A stretch of DNA of 64,000 bases. Origin: Burkholderia sp. WP9. Its GTDB lineage: Bacteria; Pseudomonadota; Gammaproteobacteria; Burkholderiales; Burkholderiaceae. Each line of letters starts with the position of its first letter. Within the stretch, counting starts at the first letter, position 1. Positions 10,019-61,815 of the stretch are shown piece by piece. The notes beneath the pieces are model-generated. The model saw only the letters and a program-made list of their open reading frames with translations, made no database searches and was not told the DNA's origin. A program made the translations under genes and the position numbers. The stretch lies in contig NZ_FNTG01000001.1 in assembly GCF_900104795.1 (NCBI RefSeq), positions 3,658,001 through 3,722,000 of the forward strand. The letters are read 5' to 3'.

Positions 10019-11989
10019 ATGACTGATCCGCTGATCCCCGCCGTCCTCGCTTTTCGCGACAACGGCACGCCTTTCTCGCCGCTTTACGACGATATCTATC
10101 ACAGCGCCGTGGGCGGTCTCGAACAGGCCCAATATGTTTTCCTGCGCGGGAACGCGCTACCCGAGCGGTGGCAGGGCCGCCGCGTCTTCACCGTGGTCGA
10201 AACCGGCTTCGGCATGGGCATCAACTTTCTGGTGACCTGGGCCGCCTGGCGTGCCGACTCGTCGCGCTGTGAGCGGCTGCATTTCGTGTCGACTGAGAAA
10301 CATCCGTTTACCGTCGACGATTTACGCAAAGTAGTAGCCGCGACCATTTCCGATCCGGAGATTGCGGGCCTCGCACAAGCCCTCGCGAACGCCTGGCCGA
10401 TGCTCGTTCCTGGCACGCATCGGCTCGAGTTCGAAGAAGGGCGCGTCGTGCTCACGCTCGTTTTCGCCGACGCGCAGGACAGCCTGCCGGCCTTGAGACT
10501 GCGTGCCGATGCTTTTTACCTCGACGGATTCGCGCCGGCCAAAAACCCCGAACTCTGGAATCCCGCGATCTTCAAGGCGCTCGCGCGCCTGGCGGGCGAG
10601 GGCGCCACCTTCGCCACTTACAGCAGCGCCGGCGAGATCAAACGTGCGTTGACGCAATGCGGCTTCGAATACCGCAAGGTGGACGGCTTCGGCTGGAAAC
10701 GCGCGATGCTGGTCGGCCACTTCGCCCCCCGCTGGCGCGTGCGGCGTTACGAGCCGCCCGCGCCGCTCGCGCTCGGCGAGCGCCATGCCGTGGTGATCGG
10801 CGCCGGGCTGGCCGGCTGCGCGGTGATCGAACGGCTCGCGGCGCGCGGCTGGCGCGTCACATCGCTCGAACGGCATGCTTCGGTGGCGCAGGACGCGTCG
10901 GGCAATCCGGCCGGCGTCTTTCATCCCATGATTTCGCGTGACGACAGCGTCGCCTCACGCGTCACGCGCGCGGGCTTTCTGTATTCGCTCAAGCGCTGGG
11001 CCGCCCTCGAACGGCTTGGTTACGGACCAACGCGCGGCGGCCAAGGCCTGTTGCAGATCGCAGCGGACGACGAAGAAGCCCGCTCGATCAGCAACGCGAT
11101 TGCCGCGTCAGGCTATCCATCCGACTACGTGAGGCCCGTCTCGCCGGATGAAGCTCAGCGGCTCGCCGGCATGCCGCTCGCCCGCGGCGGCTGGTTCTTT
11201 GCGCACGGCGGCTGGATCGACCCGGCGTCGCTCTGCGCAGCACAGTGCGCCGCGGCGGGTCAGTTGCTCGAACGACGCTTCGGTGTGGATGTCGCGCGAA
11301 TCGAGCGGTCGGGCGATGAGTGGATCGTGTTCAACTCCGCGGGCGAGGCGCTCGCGCAAGCGCCGGTGGTAATCGTCGCGAGCGCTCACGACGCCGCGCG
11401 CATCGCCGGTTTGCAGCACGCGCCGACTCGCAGCATTCGCGGCCAGCTCACATTGCTGCCGGCCGGCACGGTGCTGCCGCCGCTCGGCATGCCGGTGATC
11501 GGCGAAGGCTACGCTGTACCGCTCGCCGACGGCATGACGCTAACCGGCGCCACCTACGAACTCGACGACCCCGACACCACGCTGCGCGCGGCTGGCCATC
11601 TGGAAAACCTGCAGCGCGTCGCGCAGATGCTGCCGGCCTTCGCGGGCATCGCCGATCGCGCTAAGTCAGCGGCGTTGGCGGGGCGTGTCGCGTTCCGTTG
11701 CGTCACCAGCGATCGCATGCCGATGATCGGCCAGCTCGCCGACGAAGCGCTCGCAGCGCGCGACGCCCAGCGTCTGCGCGGCGCATGGCCACTCGATCTG
11801 CCACGTACGGACGGACTGTACGGCGCATTCGCCTATGGTTCGCGTGGGCTCGTGTGGGCAGCGCTCGGCGCAGAGCTGATCGCCTCGCAACTGGAAGGCG
11901 AACCGTGGCCACTTGAACGGGACCTGGCCGAAGACCTCGATCCCGCGCGCTTTCTGTTGCGCGCATTGCGTCAGGGAACGGTCCGTTAA
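10019..11989 (+). CDS. mnmC: Bifunctional tRNA mnm5s2U biosynthesis protein MnmC
   Basis: MnmC completes the mnm5(s2)U modification at wobble position 34 of certain tRNAs. The N-terminal half (about 1-235) is the SAM-dependent methyltransferase, with VVETGFGMGINFLVTW and DAFYLDGFAPAKNPELW. The C-terminal half is the FAD-dependent oxidase that removes the carboxymethyl group, with the dinucleotide fold VVIGAGLAGCAVIERLAARG at about residue 260. I start it at the ATG at 10019 (MTDPLIPAVLAFRDNGTPFS), giving 656 residues, close to the 668 of E. coli. The longer frame from 9914 lacks family support. MnmG, encoded at 43.4 kb, makes the substrate of the oxidase half, so two steps of one pathway are present. 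Confidence 0.95.
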   Translation: MTDPLIPAVLAFRDNGTPFSPLYDDIYHSAVGGLEQAQYVFLRGNALPERWQGRRVFTVVETGFGMGINFLVTWAAWRADSSRCERLHFVSTEKHPFTVDDLRKVVAATISDPEIAGLAQALANAWPMLVPGTHRLEFEEGRVVLTLVFADAQDSLPALRLRADAFYLDGFAPAKNPELWNPAIFKALARLAGEGATFATYSSAGEIKRALTQCGFEYRKVDGFGWKRAMLVGHFAPRWRVRRYEPPAPLALGERHAVVIGAGLAGCAVIERLAARGWRVTSLERHASVAQDASGNPAGVFHPMISRDDSVASRVTRAGFLYSLKRWAALERLGYGPTRGGQGLLQIAADDEEARSISNAIAASGYPSDYVRPVSPDEAQRLAGMPLARGGWFFAHGGWIDPASLCAAQCAAAGQLLERRFGVDVARIERSGDEWIVFNSAGEALAQAPVVIVASAHDAARIAGLQHAPTRSIRGQLTLLPAGTVLPPLGMPVIGEGYAVPLADGMTLTGATYELDDPDTTLRAAGHLENLQRVAQMLPAFAGIADRAKSAALAGRVAFRCVTSDRMPMIGQLADEALAARDAQRLRGAWPLDLPRTDGLYGAFAYGSRGLVWAALGAELIASQLEGEPWPLERDLAEDLDPARFLLRALRQGTVR

Positions 11990-12032
11990 CGGTGAGTTAA
12001 CCGCTGGCGTCCCCGCATGCTTACCCGATGAG

Positions 12033-12041
12033 TTATCCACT
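12033..12041 (+). promoter_or_regulatory. DnaA box (one mismatch)
   Basis: TTATCCACT matches the DnaA box TTATCCACA in eight of nine positions. It forms an inverted pair with the box at 12048-12056. Confidence 0.6.
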
Positions 12042-12047
12042 GAAACT

Positions 12048-12056
12048 TGTGGATAA
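12048..12056 (-). promoter_or_regulatory. DnaA box, perfect
   Basis: TGTGGATAA is the exact reverse complement of TTATCCACA. It lies seven bases beyond the box at 12033 and faces it. Confidence 0.75.
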
Positions 12057-12226
12057 CTGCGCCGTTTACCCGCGCAACTCATGTGGAGCCGTTGTGGACG
12101 TAAACGGGGTAACTTTGCCGCCGCCGAAAATCGCAAAAAGTTGCTCTTGTATACCCGCCGCTGCCGCACATGCTGTGCATCCGGTTATGCGGTCGGCAAA
12201 CCAATGATTCATTTCGGTAAACAGAA

Positions 12227-12284
12227 GTTATCCACAGAAAACGAGGCACCTTGTTAACTGTTACTACGTATACATACGGTAAAC
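12227..12284 (+). promoter_or_regulatory. Origin-like composite element A: DnaA box, 13-nt spacer, GTTAAC/TACTAC motif
   Basis: A perfect DnaA box (GTTATCCACAG, 12227-12237) is followed by a 13-nt spacer and then a 34-nt motif starting TTGTTAACT and containing TTACTACGT. The same layout, in inverted orientation, occurs at 15389-15446. The TACTAC triplets after a DnaA box resemble DnaA-trio sequences of bacterial unwinding elements. GTAAAC occurs at 12217, 12279 and 12287 around it. Function as an origin is inference. Confidence 0.5.
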
Positions 12285-12839
12285 CAGTAAACAGCAAGGC
12301 CGTGGCTGGAATGAAGCCTATCGACGTAGCTCCGTCCCATGACCCAAGACAAACTGCCTCGGCAGTGTCCCGAAAAACACATCTGCCGAATTCAAACTGG
12401 CCGCATCCGCGGCTGAGTTTGGACGTAAAAACGGTCGCTTTTTCCTCATGTCGGCGAGATAACGTACGTTTTTACCGTTTTGCCAGCATGTTCGTGTCTT
12501 TTCGGTCGAGGCTGAAAAAGCTATGGCACAATCGCCGTTCTTTTCCGCGTCGTGCCTTGCTTCTACAGCGGCACACGCAGCAAACGGAACGGTGCCGCTC
12601 AATCAGAATCTGATTCAAAGTCGACGGCGTTCTTTCACCGTGCCGGTTGCTACGGCCGCACCCCGAATGCGTCAGGCTCCCCGCGGCTGCGGCGCATTCA
12701 GATCATCCGATCGTTGAACACTCGCAACGCTGGCCATGCGAAGCGATCGCGACAGTGAGCGCTCCATGCGCCCACCCGCTCGCCGGCGTCTGCGCCGGTT
12801 CGTGTCGTCTGCCGTTGCTGCAAAGGAGAACCCATCACG

Positions 12840-14045
12840 ATGAATTCGGCGTTTTCATTTTTTCCAGCCTGGCCGCTTTCACCCGACGCCATTTTTTGGG
12901 CTGGTCTCGCATTGCTTGCCGCCGGTCTGTGCGGTGAGCTGTGCTATCGCGCGTGGCGTTTGCCGCGCATTTCCGGGTATGCGGTGATTGGTCTGATTGC
13001 CGGCGCCGCCGGTTCGGGCGTGATCGACGCGGATTCAGCGAGCGCCGCGCGGCCGTTGCTCGATGTCGCGCTAGGCTTGTTGTTGTTCGAACTCGGCAGC
13101 CGCCTCGATTTGCGCTGGATCCGTCGCAATCCGTGGCTGATTCTGTCGAGCGTCGCCGAAGCCACGCTGACTTTCGCGCTCGTGCTCCCGGTCTTGCTGT
13201 TTCTGAACGTGCCGCTCATGGTGGCCACCGTGCTCGCTGCGATTGCCATGGCAACTTCGCCGGCCATGGTGATCCAGCTGAAAACGGAATTGCGCGCGGA
13301 AGGCCAGGTCACCCAGCGTCTGCTGACCTTGACCGCGCTGAACAGCATGTATGCGGTGGTGATCGAGAAGCTCGTGTCCAGCTGGCTGCATCAGGAAATG
13401 TACGGCAACGTATTCGCGACCATCCTGCAACCGCTTTATCTGCTGGTCGGCTCGCTCGTGCTCGCGTATCTGCTCGCGCGCACCTGCACATTCTTTTATC
13501 GACGTTTGAACATGCAGGACGAACATTCGTTCGTCGCGCTGTTCGGCCTCGTGCTGCTGGCCATTGCGGTCGCGCATCTGTTCAAGCTGTCGACCATTCT
13601 TGCGTTGCTGGCCGCCGGCATCATCGTAAAGAATCATGAAGCGCGTCCGCAGTTGTGGCCGGAGCACTTCGGCACGGCCGGCTGGTTGTTGACCGTGATT
13701 CTGTTCGTGCTGACGCTGACTTCGTTCGAATGGAAAGACATTGCGCTCGGCGGCGTCGCGGCGCTGGGTCTGATTGTTGCGCGCCTCGTGGCGAAACTGG
13801 TCGGCGTGCTGGCGTTTGCCAAGCCGAGCGGTTTGAACTGGAAGCAGGGCATGGCGCTTGGTCTGTCGTTATCGCCAATGTCGGCGCTCGCCTATCTGCT
13901 GGTCGACGATACGTACAACCTGTATCCGAATTTCGATCCGCAACTGCGGGCGATCGTCATGTGTTCCATTTTCGTGCTGCAGATTCTCGGGCCGTGGCTC
14001 GTCTATCGCAGCCTCGCGCTGGTGAGCGAACGGCGCGAAGAGTAA
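12840..14045 (+). CDS. CPA2-family cation/proton antiporter, membrane domain only
   Basis: The 401-residue protein is a Kef/CPA2-type sodium (potassium)/proton exchanger domain with about 11-12 membrane segments. Visible family features are RLPRISGYAVIGLIAG near the first helices, a LLLFELGSRLDLRWIRR segment after the fourth and the ATSPAMVIQLKTELRAEGQVTQRLL region in the core. It lacks the RCK/TrkA-N nucleotide-binding domain of full KefB/KefC, so it is not a standard glutathione-gated efflux protein. A clear AAGGAG site 13 bases upstream supports the ATG at 12840. The cation it moves cannot be told from sequence. Confidence 0.82.
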   Translation: MNSAFSFFPAWPLSPDAIFWAGLALLAAGLCGELCYRAWRLPRISGYAVIGLIAGAAGSGVIDADSASAARPLLDVALGLLLFELGSRLDLRWIRRNPWLILSSVAEATLTFALVLPVLLFLNVPLMVATVLAAIAMATSPAMVIQLKTELRAEGQVTQRLLTLTALNSMYAVVIEKLVSSWLHQEMYGNVFATILQPLYLLVGSLVLAYLLARTCTFFYRRLNMQDEHSFVALFGLVLLAIAVAHLFKLSTILALLAAGIIVKNHEARPQLWPEHFGTAGWLLTVILFVLTLTSFEWKDIALGGVAALGLIVARLVAKLVGVLAFAKPSGLNWKQGMALGLSLSPMSALAYLLVDDTYNLYPNFDPQLRAIVMCSIFVLQILGPWLVYRSLALVSERREE

Positions 14046-14170
14046 GTGCGCCAGTGGGCGCACTTCGTTGCTCGAAGCTCGGTGCCTGCTACGCTCCATC
14101 CAGCTTATATTCGATTCAAAAACGGCCGGGCACGTGACCCACACCCGGCCGACCTGACTCAGGGGACGCC

Positions 14171-15286
14171 ATGTCACTCGAACCCTTCATCGACTCGAAA
14201 CCGTTCACCTTCGGTGTCGAACTCGAGATGCAGATCGTCAACACGCATGACTATGATCTGACCAAAGCCGGCTCGGATCTGCTGCGCCTAATCAAGGACG
14301 AAAAGATCCCCGGCAACATCACGCCGGAAATCACCGAAAGCATGATCGAGCTGTCCACCGGCATTTGCACGTCGCATGAGCAAGCCGTCGCCGACTTGCG
14401 CAAGATTCGCGACACGCTCGTTTCGGCGGCCGATCATCTGAACGTCGGCTTGTGCGGCGGCGGCACGCACGCGTTCCAGCAATGGAGTGAACGGCAGATC
14501 GTCGATACGCCGCGCTTCCAGTACCTGTCCGAGTTGTACGGCTATCTCGCCAAGCAGTTCACGGTGTTCGGCCAGCATGTGCATATCGGCTGCCCGGATC
14601 CGAACAGCGCGCTCTACCTGCTGCATTCCATGTCGCGCTTCATTCCGCACTTCATTGCCTTGTCCGCATCGTCGCCGTTCGTGCAGGGTGTCGATACCGG
14701 CTTTCATTCGGCACGACTGAATTCCGTGTTCGCGTTCCCGCTCTCGGGCCGGGCGCCGTTCGTGTTGACGTGGGACAGCTTCGAGGAATATTTCTCGAAG
14801 ATGGTCCACACGGGCGTCGTCAACAGCATGAAAGATTTTTACTGGGACATCCGGCCGAAGCCCGGTTTCGGCACGATCGAAGTGCGCGTGATGGACACGC
14901 CGTTGTCGGTGGATCGCGCGGCGGCGATTGCCTGCTACATCCAGACGCTCGCGCGGCATCTGCTGCTCGACAAACCGATCACGCCGAAGGAAGACGACTA
15001 CCTCGTCTACACCTTCAATCGTTTCGAAGCATGCCGGTTTGGTCTGGCCGGCACCTGTATCAATCCGCAAACGGGCGAACGCAAGACGATTTCCGAAGAC
15101 ATTCTCGAAACGCTGGATCGGATCGCTCCGCACGCCGAAGCGTTGGGTTCGGGTAATGCGCTGGCTGAAATCGGCTCGATCGCTCGCAGTCAGGTCAATG
15201 ATGCGACCTGGCTGCGTGGCGTCGTCGAACGGGAGAAGTCCCTGCACGAAGCCGTCAGGCAACAGTGTTTGCAGTGGCGCGCGTAG
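14171..15286 (+). CDS. YbdK-type carboxylate-amine ligase (glutamate-cysteine ligase 2 family)
   Basis: The protein belongs to the GCS2/YbdK family of ATP-dependent carboxylate-amine ligases, which make a peptide-like bond between a carboxylate and an amine. The sequence [13 protein letters not shown] is the family opening. [32 protein letters not shown], a [22 protein letters not shown] segment and [13 protein letters not shown] are the conserved core. The length of 371 residues is typical. E. coli YbdK has weak glutamate-cysteine ligase activity and its true substrate is unclear, so I give no specific reaction. A terminator follows 35 bases after the stop. Confidence 0.88.
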
Positions 15287-15320
15287 CCGGAGACTGAACG
15301 GCTCGCGGTAAATCGTAAGG

Positions 15321-15345
15321 AAACCCGCCTCGAGCGGGTTTTTTT
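15321..15345 (+). terminator. Rho-independent terminator after the YbdK-type gene
   Basis: An AACCCGC/GCGGGTT stem with a five-base loop is followed by a T run of about seven. Confidence 0.85.
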
Positions 15346-15388
15346 CAATAAATTAAATTTCCAGCTCGGCGTATCTTAGGTTTTATAG

Positions 15389-15446
15389 AGTTAACGTATA
15401 CAGACGTAGTAGTAGTTAACAAGCATTGCGCCGGCCTGTGGACAAC
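15389..15446 (-). promoter_or_regulatory. Origin-like composite element B: DnaA box, 13-nt spacer, GTTAAC/TACTACTAC motif
   Basis: Read on the minus strand, GTTGTCCACAG (15436-15446) is followed by a 13-nt spacer and then TTGTTAACTACTACTACGT. The 34-nt motif matches that of element A in 26 of 34 positions by hand alignment, and the box-to-motif spacing is identical. Three consecutive CTA triplets fit the DnaA-trio pattern. The AT-rich segment lies on the far side of the triplets, as expected of an unwinding region. Function is inference. Confidence 0.55.
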
Positions 15447-15604
15447 TGAATAATTCCCTGCAAAGTCAATGCGCTGCGTAAACCATAAGTGAGCTGATCG
15501 AGGCTGCATGGAGGCCGGTATACGAGGACAACTTCGGTGCGGCCAGGCAGGCCTCGCGGCTTATCAAGAATTGGCGCACAAGCTGTCCTTGCGTTTTCCC
15601 GTGG

Positions 15605-15613
15605 TTATCCACA
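15605..15613 (+). promoter_or_regulatory. DnaA box, perfect
   Basis: A perfect TTATCCACA. It is followed at nearly the same distance as in element A by TTAGCTGT, a weak relative of TTAACTGT, so this may be a decayed third copy. Confidence 0.65.
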
Positions 15614-15823
15614 GCTTGCGTTGGATAAGTTAGCTGTACGATTCGCCGCTCTCGCATAGAATGTCGTTTTCGCTGCCTTGCCTTGCAGGGCGGTAAATTT
15701 TTGAGATAGTAGAAAACCGTCTTGTCCGCAGTTGGGCGAGGCTACCCCACACAGGCTACGGGTGCGGTCGGCGAATGGTTCGCCAGCGGCGCGCGAAAGC
15801 TGTAAATAAACCAATCGAAGATT

Positions 15824-43223: not shown

Positions 43224-43260
43224 AAGCGGTGTGTTTCACGTGAAACACACCGCTTTTTTA
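43224..43260 (+). terminator. Rho-independent terminator of the second LIV operon, containing parS
   Basis: A long perfect stem AAAGCGGTGTGTTTCAC/GTGAAACACACCGCTTT with no real loop is followed by a T run. The centre of the stem is a parS site. Confidence 0.85.
43232..43247. other. parS: parS centromere site 1
   Basis: TGTTTCACGTGAAACA is a perfect match to the bacterial parS consensus, the ParB binding site. It lies 2.8 kb upstream of parA and is fused into the terminator stem of the LivF-like gene. Confidence 0.93.
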
Positions 43261-43304
43261 TGGGTTGGCCGTTCGGACGAAATTCGGGCCTAAACCGAAC
43301 CCGT

Positions 43305-43310
43305 TATAAT
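43305..43310 (+). promoter_or_regulatory. -10 box of the mnmG promoter
   Basis: A perfect TATAAT about 55 bases ahead of mnmG. The -35 region is weak. Confidence 0.5.
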
Positions 43311-43365
43311 TCGCCCATACATTTCCTTTGAAAGGCTCACGCGATGATCTGGCGTGAGATCCGCG

Positions 43366-45324
43366 ATGCTCTTTCCCACAGAATTTGACGTAATCGTCGT
43401 CGGCGGCGGTCATGCCGGCACGGAAGCCGCGTTGGCTTCGGCACGCATGGGCAATACGACGCTCCTGCTGACCCACAACATCGAAACGCTCGGCCAGATG
43501 AGCTGCAACCCGTCGATTGGCGGTATTGGCAAGGGCCATCTGGTCAAGGAAGTCGACGCGCTCGGCGGTGCAATGGCGGCCGCGACGGACGAGGGCGGCA
43601 TTCAATTCCGCATCCTGAATTCATCGAAGGGCCCGGCCGTTCGTGCGACGCGCGCTCAGGCAGACCGTTTGCTGTACAAGCAGGCTATCCGCCATCGGCT
43701 GGAAAATCAGCCGAACCTTTGGTTGTTCCAGCAGGCGGTCGACGATCTGATGGTGGAAGGTGACCGCGTGGTCGGCGCCGTCACGCAGGTGGGGATCCGT
43801 TTCCGTTCGCGCGCGGTGGTGCTGACGGCTGGGACCTTCCTCGACGGCAAGATTCACGTCGGTTTGAACAACTATACCGGCGGCCGTGCCGGTGATCCGG
43901 CGTCTGTGTCGTTGTCGGCGCGTCTCAAGGAATTGAAGCTGCCGCAAGGTCGGTTGAAGACCGGGACGCCGCCGCGTATCGACGGCCGCACCATCGACTT
44001 TTCCCAGCTCGAAGAGCAGCCGGGCGATCTGGATCCGGTGCCAGTGTTCTCGTTTCTGGGGCGTGTTGAGCAGCATCCGCGGCAGGTGCCGTGTTGGGTT
44101 ACGCACACCAACGAGCGGACGCACGACATCATTCGCGGCGGCCTCGATCGTTCGCCCATGTACACCGGCGTGATCGAAGGGGTGGGGCCGCGGTATTGCC
44201 CATCGATCGAAGACAAGATTCACCGATTCGCATCGAAGGAATCGCATCAGATCTTTCTTGAGCCGGAAGGGCTGACCACCAACGAGTTTTACCCGAATGG
44301 GATCTCCACGAGCCTGCCGTTCGACGTGCAGCTGGAGTTGGTGCGTTCGATGCGCGGCTTGGAGCATGCGCATATCCTCCGGCCGGGCTATGCGATCGAG
44401 TACGACTACTTCGATCCGCGTGGACTGAAGGCTTCGCTGGAAACGAAAGTCATTAACGGGTTGTTCTTCGCCGGTCAGATCAACGGCACGACTGGCTATG
44501 AAGAAGCCGCCGCGCAGGGTTTGCTGGCTGGGATCAACGCGGGTCTGTACGTGCAAGGTAAGGAAGCATGGCGCCCTCGGCGCGATCAGGCTTACCTTGG
44601 CGTGTTGGTCGACGATCTGGTTACGCGTGGCGTGTCGGAGCCGTATCGCATGTTTACGAGCCGTGCCGAATATCGCCTGAGCCTCCGTGAAGACAATGCG
44701 GATATGCGTCTGACTGAGATCGGCCGCGAGCTGGGCGTGGTGGATGACGTTCGGTGGGATGCCTTCAGCCGCAAACGCGACGCTGTTTCACGTGAAACAG
44801 AGCGCCTTCGCACCACGTGGGTCAATCCTAAGACGTTATCGGCTGACGAGGCGACGGCCTTGCTCGGCAAGCCAATCGATCACGAGTACAGCCTGGCGGA
44901 TCTGCTGCGCCGCCCGGGTGTGTCTTACGACGGTGTTTGCGGGTTGCGTGCCGGTGCTTGCGCTGCGCCTGAAACGTTGGCGGAAGACGACGTTCTGCTT
45001 GCCCAGATCAAGGAGCAGATCGAGATCGGGATCAAATATCAGGGCTACATTGACCGTCAGGCGGGAGAGATTGAGCGGAACGAGGCGCACGAAAGCACGC
45101 GTCTACCTGAAGGATTGGATTACGCGGAAGTCCGGGGCCTTTCCTTCGAGGCGCGCCAGAAGCTTACGCAGTTCCGCCCTGAAACCATTGGTCAGGCCTC
45201 GCGCATCTCCGGCATTACGCCGGCGGCCATCTCGCTGCTTATGGTCCATTTGAAGCGTGGTTTGGGTCGTCGTCCGGCGAAACCCACTGAGCCGGGCACC
45301 GACAGCACGCCGGTGACGCAATGA
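43366..45324 (+). CDS. mnmG: tRNA uridine 5-carboxymethylaminomethyl modification enzyme MnmG (GidA)
   Basis: MnmG, with MnmE, uses FAD and tetrahydrofolate to make cmnm5U at tRNA wobble U34. The 652-residue sequence is clear: [23 protein letters not shown] for FAD binding, [24 protein letters not shown], and [16 protein letters not shown]. The C-terminal helical domain has [13 protein letters not shown]. The ATG at 43366 is chosen over a GTG four codons earlier because the family begins MLFPTEFD. A parS site lies inside the gene at 44784-44799 without breaking the frame. It overlaps rsmG by four bases. Confidence 0.97.
44784..44799. other. parS: parS centromere site 2, inside mnmG
   Basis: A second perfect TGTTTCACGTGAAACA. 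In frame it encodes Val-Ser-Arg-Glu-Thr within mnmG, so the protein tolerates it. It lies 1.3 kb upstream of parA. Confidence 0.94.
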
Positions 45325-61414: not shown

Positions 61415-61815
61415 GGCCGTAATCGTTACCAATTTTGCTGCGGCGCAGCGAACTGGGCTCTCGGTCTAAGGGAAAATTTGCGGTTGGCGGGCCGTCAGAT
61501 GGCGGTCCTGCGAAAGTCAAGACTTGACTTATGCACATTCATCACGCTGCGGCGCGGTAGAAGCTTTAGTCGCATCGCAACCCTTGCACATTGCAGGCGC
61601 ATTTGATCTAAGCCTTGTCTGGCAAGGGTTTGACGGGGGCGATACAGAATGTGCGGAAGCCCACAGAAGGCCGCTGCGCCGTGCTTTCGGGGCGTTCCGG
61701 GCAAAGTTCTCAACAAAGTTATCCACAGGCACGCGGGCCGATTGCAATTGTTCAGCGGAATCCAAAACTTAGCGCCGAAATTGAAGTTTTACTTTAACTT
61801 CGGGGGGAGCGCCGT
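61415..61815. other. Intergenic region between hemE and priA
   Basis: About 400 bases with a perfect DnaA box and short frames that resemble nothing. It probably holds the priA promoter, which I cannot place. Confidence 0.4.
61719..61727 (+). promoter_or_regulatory. DnaA box upstream of priA
   Basis: A perfect TTATCCACA about 90 bases upstream of the priA start. PriA restarts replication forks, so control by DnaA is a reasonable thought, but a single box proves little. Confidence 0.5.

Follow-up and report, generated by a model that had tools for sequence, protein, structure and literature searches.

We analyzed a stretch of 64,000 nucleotides (nt) of Burkholderia sp. WP9, referred to below as the window (G000:C1:3658001-3722000; the genome, G000, has 9,023,533 bases in 7 contigs, with 4,761,244 bases in contig C1). 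The window holds two origin-like units of ~240 base pairs (bp), A and B, and given that the cumulative GC skew turns between them, they very probably form the replication origin (oriC) of chromosome 1. The whole unit recurs at two distal sites, C and D, which would be DnaA-binding regulatory satellites doubling soon after initiation; we assign this combined account a probability of about 0.55, judging from sequence comparisons. The preliminary description of this DNA had proposed a candidate chromosomal origin here. An origin in such a region had already been proposed for Burkholderia cenocepacia in passages of Du et al. 2016 (PMC4948915), and the new part of our account is the recurrence at C and D.

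Unit A (12063..12302, plus strand; genome position 3670226) matched R1, a sequence-only profile of 54 columns built from 64 gapless module sequences, at E = 2.5e-14. Its strong box, a perfect DnaA box at 12228-12236 (plus), is followed by a 13-nt spacer and by TTGTTAACT-GT-TACTAC-GTATACATA, and several weaker DnaA-box-like elements lie in register upstream. Unit B (15371..15610, minus strand; genome position 3673396; E = 7.2e-13) has the same architecture and points at A from ~3.2 kb away, the two units facing each other; it carries the one-mismatch box TTGTCCACA (15437-15445, minus) and three CTA triplets. An opposed pair of boxes lies upstream of A (12033..12056), and another box lies at the outer end of B (15605..15613, plus). 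All five DnaA boxes named in the preliminary description were confirmed, three of them perfect TTATCCACA boxes (12048, minus; 12228, plus; 15605, plus) and two with one mismatch (12033, plus; 15437, minus), and so were its inverted modules, whose 34-nt motifs are identical at 26/34 positions and whose 58-nt sequences agree at 37/58. The pattern TTWTNCACA occurs 8 times in the window versus 1.48 expected, and 0/100 shuffles had 8; the cluster at A and B is intergenic, as is typical of an oriC. The AT-rich DNA pointed out beyond B (15322..15390) is indeed 72% AT, and equally AT-rich 50-mers make up 0.014% of those in the window, but its AT content is partly due to the T-run of a terminator-like hairpin at the end of the ligase gene (15322-15345, judged by eye), and over the 50 bases past A the AT content is just 44%.

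Both units have three NAN triplets in the orientation expected of DnaA-trios (3'-GAC-AAT-GAT-5' in A, 3'-GAT-GAT-GAT-5' in B), but the distance from box to triplets is 21 nt, with an invariant GTTAAC between, which is longer than a DnaA-trio spacer. The units resemble the basal unwinding system (BUS), as outlined in passages of PMC8287927, in their strong box, fixed spacer, three triplets, conserved middle base and right orientation. According to the same passages, the BUS spacer from box to trio peaks at 10-13 nt and the search rule allows up to 16 nt; because the 21 nt found here exceed that rule, the unit appears to be BUS-like rather than a BUS member.

Over a 400-kb stretch of C1, the cumulative GC skew reaches its minimum between A and B, at 3672745 (window 14745), a switch that the preliminary description had left unplaced, while the keto-skew minimum of the same stretch lies at 3662213, 8 kb left of A. 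In the WP9 genome, orientation-balanced fourfold-site skew has a negative sign to the left of A and a positive one to the right of B. In three relatives (G092, G239 and G211), the GC-skew minima lie 6.3, 2.6 and 8.7 kb from the unit at the A locus, the G211 stretch extending only 21 kb past that unit. The earlier suggestion of a chromosomal origin not next to dnaA is well supported by the GC-skew minimum between the modules, by the location of dnaA (3606061, 64 kb to the left of A) and by a unit present in 77/80 loci (see below); of the outcomes that the preliminary description named as refuting it, those on skew and on conservation turned out in its favour. For chromosome 1 of B. cenocepacia, passages of Du et al. 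2016 (PMC4948915) say that the true origin might be marked by a cluster of DnaA boxes near nucleotide 1 together with the GC-skew minimum; they call its exact position unclear, and marker frequencies indicate replication in both directions from the predicted region. That region is like A/B in its box cluster, its skew minimum and a dnaA that is not adjacent; unlike our account, these passages leave the exact origin open, and neither a fixed-register unit nor repeated copies are described in them. A passage of PMC7364216 gives BCAL0003 as a MarR-family gene and BCAL0423 as dnaA in B. cenocepacia; because a MarR gene also lies immediately right of B in the window, the two origin regions are probably the same locus. 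In the named B. cenocepacia genome, 49 kb separate two units, and one of these may be the alternative Ori-finder site.

Between A and B lie a Na+/H+ exchanger (antiporter) family gene (12840..14045, plus; PF00999, E = 7.4e-32) and a GCS2-type glutamate-cysteine ligase family gene (14171..15286, plus; PF04107, E = 6.8e-58). We surveyed 80 named loci around the ligase gene, a few of them incomplete (e.g., L046), and 77 held at least one unit, a conservation at the same locus that is expected of an oriC; the three without a unit came from the most distant relatives, whose ligases are 66-67% identical. Given that a unit lies upstream of the ligase gene in 74/80 loci, downstream in 47/80 and on both sides in 44/80 (some second matches being weak: L060, L062, L083), having one unit here is usual and having the pair is not. 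Only A was present in 30/80 loci and only the downstream (B-side) unit in 3/80, all Pandoraea. The preliminary statement that one or both modules belong to an origin is well supported but was incomplete, since both units occur in just over half of the loci and the unit recurs at two distal sites. In Robbsia andropogonis (L089:7367-7942), two same-orientation units separated by ~0.5 kb lie to one side of the ligase gene, in place of an inverted pair. Origins of the bipartite kind, as in Helicobacter pylori and Bacillus subtilis, similarly consist of two origin sub-regions with genes between, and there the sub-regions are separated by dnaA; A and B differ in enclosing the antiporter and ligase genes rather than dnaA, in having the triplet block in both halves, and in that one half alone is present in many relatives.

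The exact module pattern (GTTRTCCACAG-N13-TTGTTAAC) was found at 4 places in the 9.02-Mb genome, and the reversed pattern, used as control, at none. R1, with 150 of 881 first-look candidates scored, also recovered four copies (E = 1.0e-14 to 7.2e-13), all on C1 and none on the other six contigs. The two modules first described are thus real, but two more copies lie outside the window: unit C (3507229, minus), 163 kb left of A, and unit D (3888535, minus), 218 kb to the right. R1 gave no significant fifth copy in this genome; we take the next best match (E = 1.03, window 61717) as chance or a lone DnaA-box region. Two further DnaA-box matches were seen at window 61529-61744 (61529 and 61719). 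When 93 units were aligned from -165 to +75 around the strong box, TGTG..TTGATAA or TGTGGACGTAAACGGGGTAAC near -130, AAAAGTT.TCC near -88 and GGTTAT near -44 were in register, and the box was followed, after 13 nt, by TTGTTAACT, a pair of variable bases, TACTAC and, in most units, GTATACATA. The 165 bp before the box gave identities of 81 (B-C), 85 (B-D), 89 (C-D), 65 (A-B) and 66 (A-C), and 0/2000 mononucleotide shuffles reached the score at the best of seven shifts; for A-D, with an identity of 61, the score was reached by 13/2000 shuffles.

Some further features were observed in the WP9 genome. A reverse transcriptase gene (PF00078, E = 1.4e-23) lies at L011:7855-8904, ~0.6 kb right of unit C, and a recombinase-like frame, named by eye, at L011:12534-14099, ~5 kb beyond it; the region by C looks mobile. 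Two DnaA-domain matches with identical score (G000:C1:4061334 and G000:C3:82621) are probably an insertion-sequence ATPase present twice. The parS sites mentioned in the preliminary description were found as two parS-like palindromes (43233..44800, at 43233 and 44785), called against what we take to be the parS consensus.

Allowing up to 2 mismatches, the pattern matched 117/117 genomes of the genus, and the reversed control matched none; with up to 3 mismatches it matched 120/200 genomes of the family, in 12/24 genera. R1 matched 189/299 family genomes at E <= 1e-4, and at this threshold, among the matching genomes listed for each group (genomes tying group to genus in brackets), Paraburkholderia (g1; G054 = G447, L041; n = 41) had two units in 11, three in 21 and four in 9 genomes; Burkholderia (g11; G219 = G461, L069; n = 41) had two in 38, three in 2 and four in 1; Pandoraea (g10; G244 = G472, L087; n = 31) had one in 29 and two in 2; Trinickia (g24; G229 = G450, L040; n = 11) had two units each; and Caballeronia (g9; G144 = G457, L060; n = 42) had one to four. 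The named genomes matched R1 in 35/38 cases at E <= 0.05, and the named Trinickia had A/B only (3/3). In an order-wide search of 150 genomes, 11 matched at E <= 0.01, three in this family (WP9 included) and 8 outside it, the latter weakly (best 1.1e-6). A single-contig genome from another family of the order has two weak matches 390 bases apart near its end (G300:C1:5138125-5138564, E about 1e-6), perhaps at its origin.

The distal units keep similar distances in relatives, with C and D in Paraburkholderia, to which WP9 belongs, D in Caballeronia and C in Burkholderia. For units on one contig, taking contigs as circular where needed, C is located about 46-131 kb to the left in the other Paraburkholderia genomes G016, G011, G052, G053, G092, G082, G020, G059, G113, G108 and G106, and D 182-304 kb to the right in G016, G082, G092, G113, G108, G059, G020, G011, G053, G106, G052 and G044. 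Nine Caballeronia genomes have D at a distance of 142-244 kb. Of the Burkholderia (g11) genomes listed, 18/23 have a second unit at 41-61 kb from A, lying on the same side as C and oriented like it; the other five have the A/B pair (2), units on separate contigs (2) or four units (1). The orientation of D varies, being reversed in G053, G001, G020 and the Caballeronia genomes fetched.

Gene neighbourhoods of C and D are kept between clades within about 20 kb, and the immediately neighbouring genes differ. The C sites of WP9, G053, G020, G092 and G052 share some of their genes over about 15 kb, and that of Burkholderia G239 has three genes in common, shifted by ~20 kb; D adjoins the same EamA-type gene in WP9, G092, G052 and G044, and the D sites of G053 and Caballeronia have in common one gene located 19 kb from D in WP9. 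For C or D units grouped into five orthologous sets, 90-100% of box columns, 88-100% of triplet-block columns and 15-69% of columns in the 13-nt spacer were invariant (four sets: box and TTGTTAACT..TACTAC block 88-100% versus spacer 15-46%; fifth set: 94-100% versus 69%); because the relatives were picked by the module motif, motif columns are favoured in these counts, and the within-pattern comparison with the spacer is least affected, yet still affected. A tree was built from 90 units, two Robbsia units and G082_C (upstream part without match) being left out of the 93; in it, 27/30 A rows formed one branch (100/96) and 19/23 B rows another, weakly supported one, while C and D fell into several clade-specific branches. 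Three C-site units, from G053, G020 and G001, which kept their position label in the tree, fell inside the A branch (100/99). Given that these A-type units resemble A over 250-275 bp only (78-83% identity), with flanks that do not match, it appears that at the C site a unit can be copied in as a block or be converted. Such turnover, together with copy numbers that vary within genera, would also suit units that are left over from former origin positions or from duplications, are decaying and have no function today. We consider this unlikely, given that box and triplet block are far more conserved than the spacer between them (in genomes found by motif), that the surroundings of C and D are kept across clades, and that an A-type unit taking over the same position suggests a niche being maintained.

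The units also contain GTWWAC, a motif that may be methylated here. Ten sites lie in and beside A (11985..12310), the densest cluster of the 400 kb, and 5 in and beside B (15370..15640), so that 15 of the 25 sites in the window are at A and B; the 400 kb hold 91 sites, with the densest 300-bp clusters at A (9), B (5) and C (5). The unit itself contains CACAG at the box, plus GTTAAC and usually GTATAC flanking the triplets. Passages of PMC7364216 report that GTWWAC and CACAG are methylated in B. cenocepacia and that origins are rich in both, and a GTWWAC adenine methyltransferase is reported as conserved across Burkholderiaceae in part of PMC5390034. The WP9 genome has 3 PF01555 methyltransferase genes, one of them on C2, and none could be assigned to the GTWWAC marks. 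The gene on C2 (L251, G000:C2:1663833-1664492; PF01555 DNA methyltransferase, 331 aa) is a candidate for the GTWWAC enzyme. BCAM0992, the B. cenocepacia counterpart of this enzyme, is presumably on the second chromosome, going by what we take its tag to mean.

In the account that we favour, A and B together would be the oriC of chromosome 1, where DnaA would bind the strong box and the weaker in-register boxes of the unit, extend over the triplets beside GTTAAC and open the duplex, by analogy with the Bacillus BUS model. Forks would copy C and D a few minutes after initiation, and the resulting additional DnaA-binding, origin-like units would damp re-initiation, perhaps gated by the methylation state of the GTWWAC sites that are dense at A, B and C. 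DnaA binding, unwinding, a sink or nucleotide-switch role and methylation gating are thus predicted functions of the units. The satellites are variable and seemingly dispensable and therefore fit a regulatory role. Loci of the datA and DARS kind have a specific order of DnaA boxes, with IHF/Fis sites, that alters the nucleotide state of DnaA. Passages of PMC12371093 describe the E. coli loci datA, DARS1 and DARS2 as non-essential and taking up DnaA; C and D would be comparable as dispensable chromosomal DnaA-binding loci away from oriC, but they are copies of the whole origin unit, which the E. coli loci, as described there, are not. Several points weigh against this account: 11 of the 41 Paraburkholderia genomes listed have two units and apparently lack satellites (units counted, not positions, the two places in 8 of the 11 being either 3 kb apart or not seen separately), a plain sink would not need so conserved a triplet block, the triplets lie 21 nt after the box and hence farther than the 16 nt that the published BUS search allows (PMC8287927, in part), D has only 2 GTWWAC sites within 250 bp, and FtsK-orienting polar sequence (KOPS) sites are too few for a polarity switch at A/B to show.

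It is improbable that C and D are real secondary origins, that is, genuine DnaA-dependent initiation sites that are used by a minority of cells or in certain growth conditions, flank oriC at set distances, give up to three initiation zones and can be re-seeded by copying of oriC units. The whole unit, including the triplet block, is present in both, and raw GC skew is near zero in the half-interval beside D (WP9 +0.0017, G092 +0.0034, G053 +0.0072, G254 +0.0023) and recovers to +0.041 to +0.064 beyond D in 4/4 D-bearing genomes examined, versus +0.0246 (sampled in the same way) and +0.0328 (at +110-220 kb) in a Burkholderia genome without D, a comparison in which the four genomes have gene order in common and there is one control. 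Additional origins would be expected to leave such a pattern. The C-side half-interval of WP9 also stands out, at +0.0049 versus -0.0201 and -0.0247 beside it. Given that orientation-balanced fourfold-site skew keeps its normal sign beside D (WP9 +0.0318, G092 +0.0328, G053 +0.0352, bootstrap ranges above 0), like the +0.0337 of the Burkholderia genome without D, the raw dip is mostly gene content, and with most of the signal gone we rejected the secondary-origin reading of raw skew at D. G254 gave +0.0065 beside D (bootstrap range -0.0151 to +0.0272), compatible with zero, and at C the fourfold-site bootstrap ranges include zero; gene orientation is mixed, the C-to-midpoint fraction on the plus strand being 0.68 in WP9 versus 0.24 in G092. 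That B. cenocepacia chromosome 1 replicates in both directions from its predicted region, as given in passages of PMC4948915, also argues against secondary origins, albeit in a genus mostly without D and with C within about 60 kb.

Similarly doubtful is that C and/or D are chromosome-1 checkpoint sites that license the secondary chromosome, like crtS of Vibrio cholerae, which lies on chromosome 1 at a fixed distance from the origin. C and D lie on fixed sides of the origin, and Pandoraea, which we take to be a single-chromosome genus, has one unit in 29/31 matching genomes listed. The crtS site is bound by RctB, not DnaA, which speaks against the likeness, and its sequence is, we assume, unrelated to C and D. 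In support, passages of PMC13342612 report Hi-C contacts of ori2 with a large part of Chr1 in B. cepacia, and Du et al. call the c1-c2 link worth exploring in a passage of PMC4948915. This role is weakened because satellites are missing from some two-contig genomes (G024, G034 and G116, with A/B only, if each contig is taken as a replicon) and from all three named Trinickia. That the modules are DnaA- or methylation-controlled promoters of adjacent genes, in line with the GTWWAC marks that are commonest upstream of genes in Ralstonia (PMC5390034, in part), is very improbable and was rejected on unit orientation, with B, C and D pointing into 3' ends of opposite-strand genes, A alone facing a start codon, ~560 bp off, and the genes adjoining C and D differing between clades.

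A literature search of titles, starts of abstracts and passages, supplements not covered, found no description of distal full-unit copies. The general view is that each bacterial chromosome has a single DnaA-driven origin. If A and B are the oriC and C and D its satellites, conserved full origin-like copies within about 0.4 Mb would offer a natural case for studying what distinguishes an origin from near-identical non-origins, and would let one ask whether such copies time initiation or fire themselves. The A/B pair may also provide an exact candidate for the origin left open in published Burkholderia work, and would link this origin to a conserved methylation motif.

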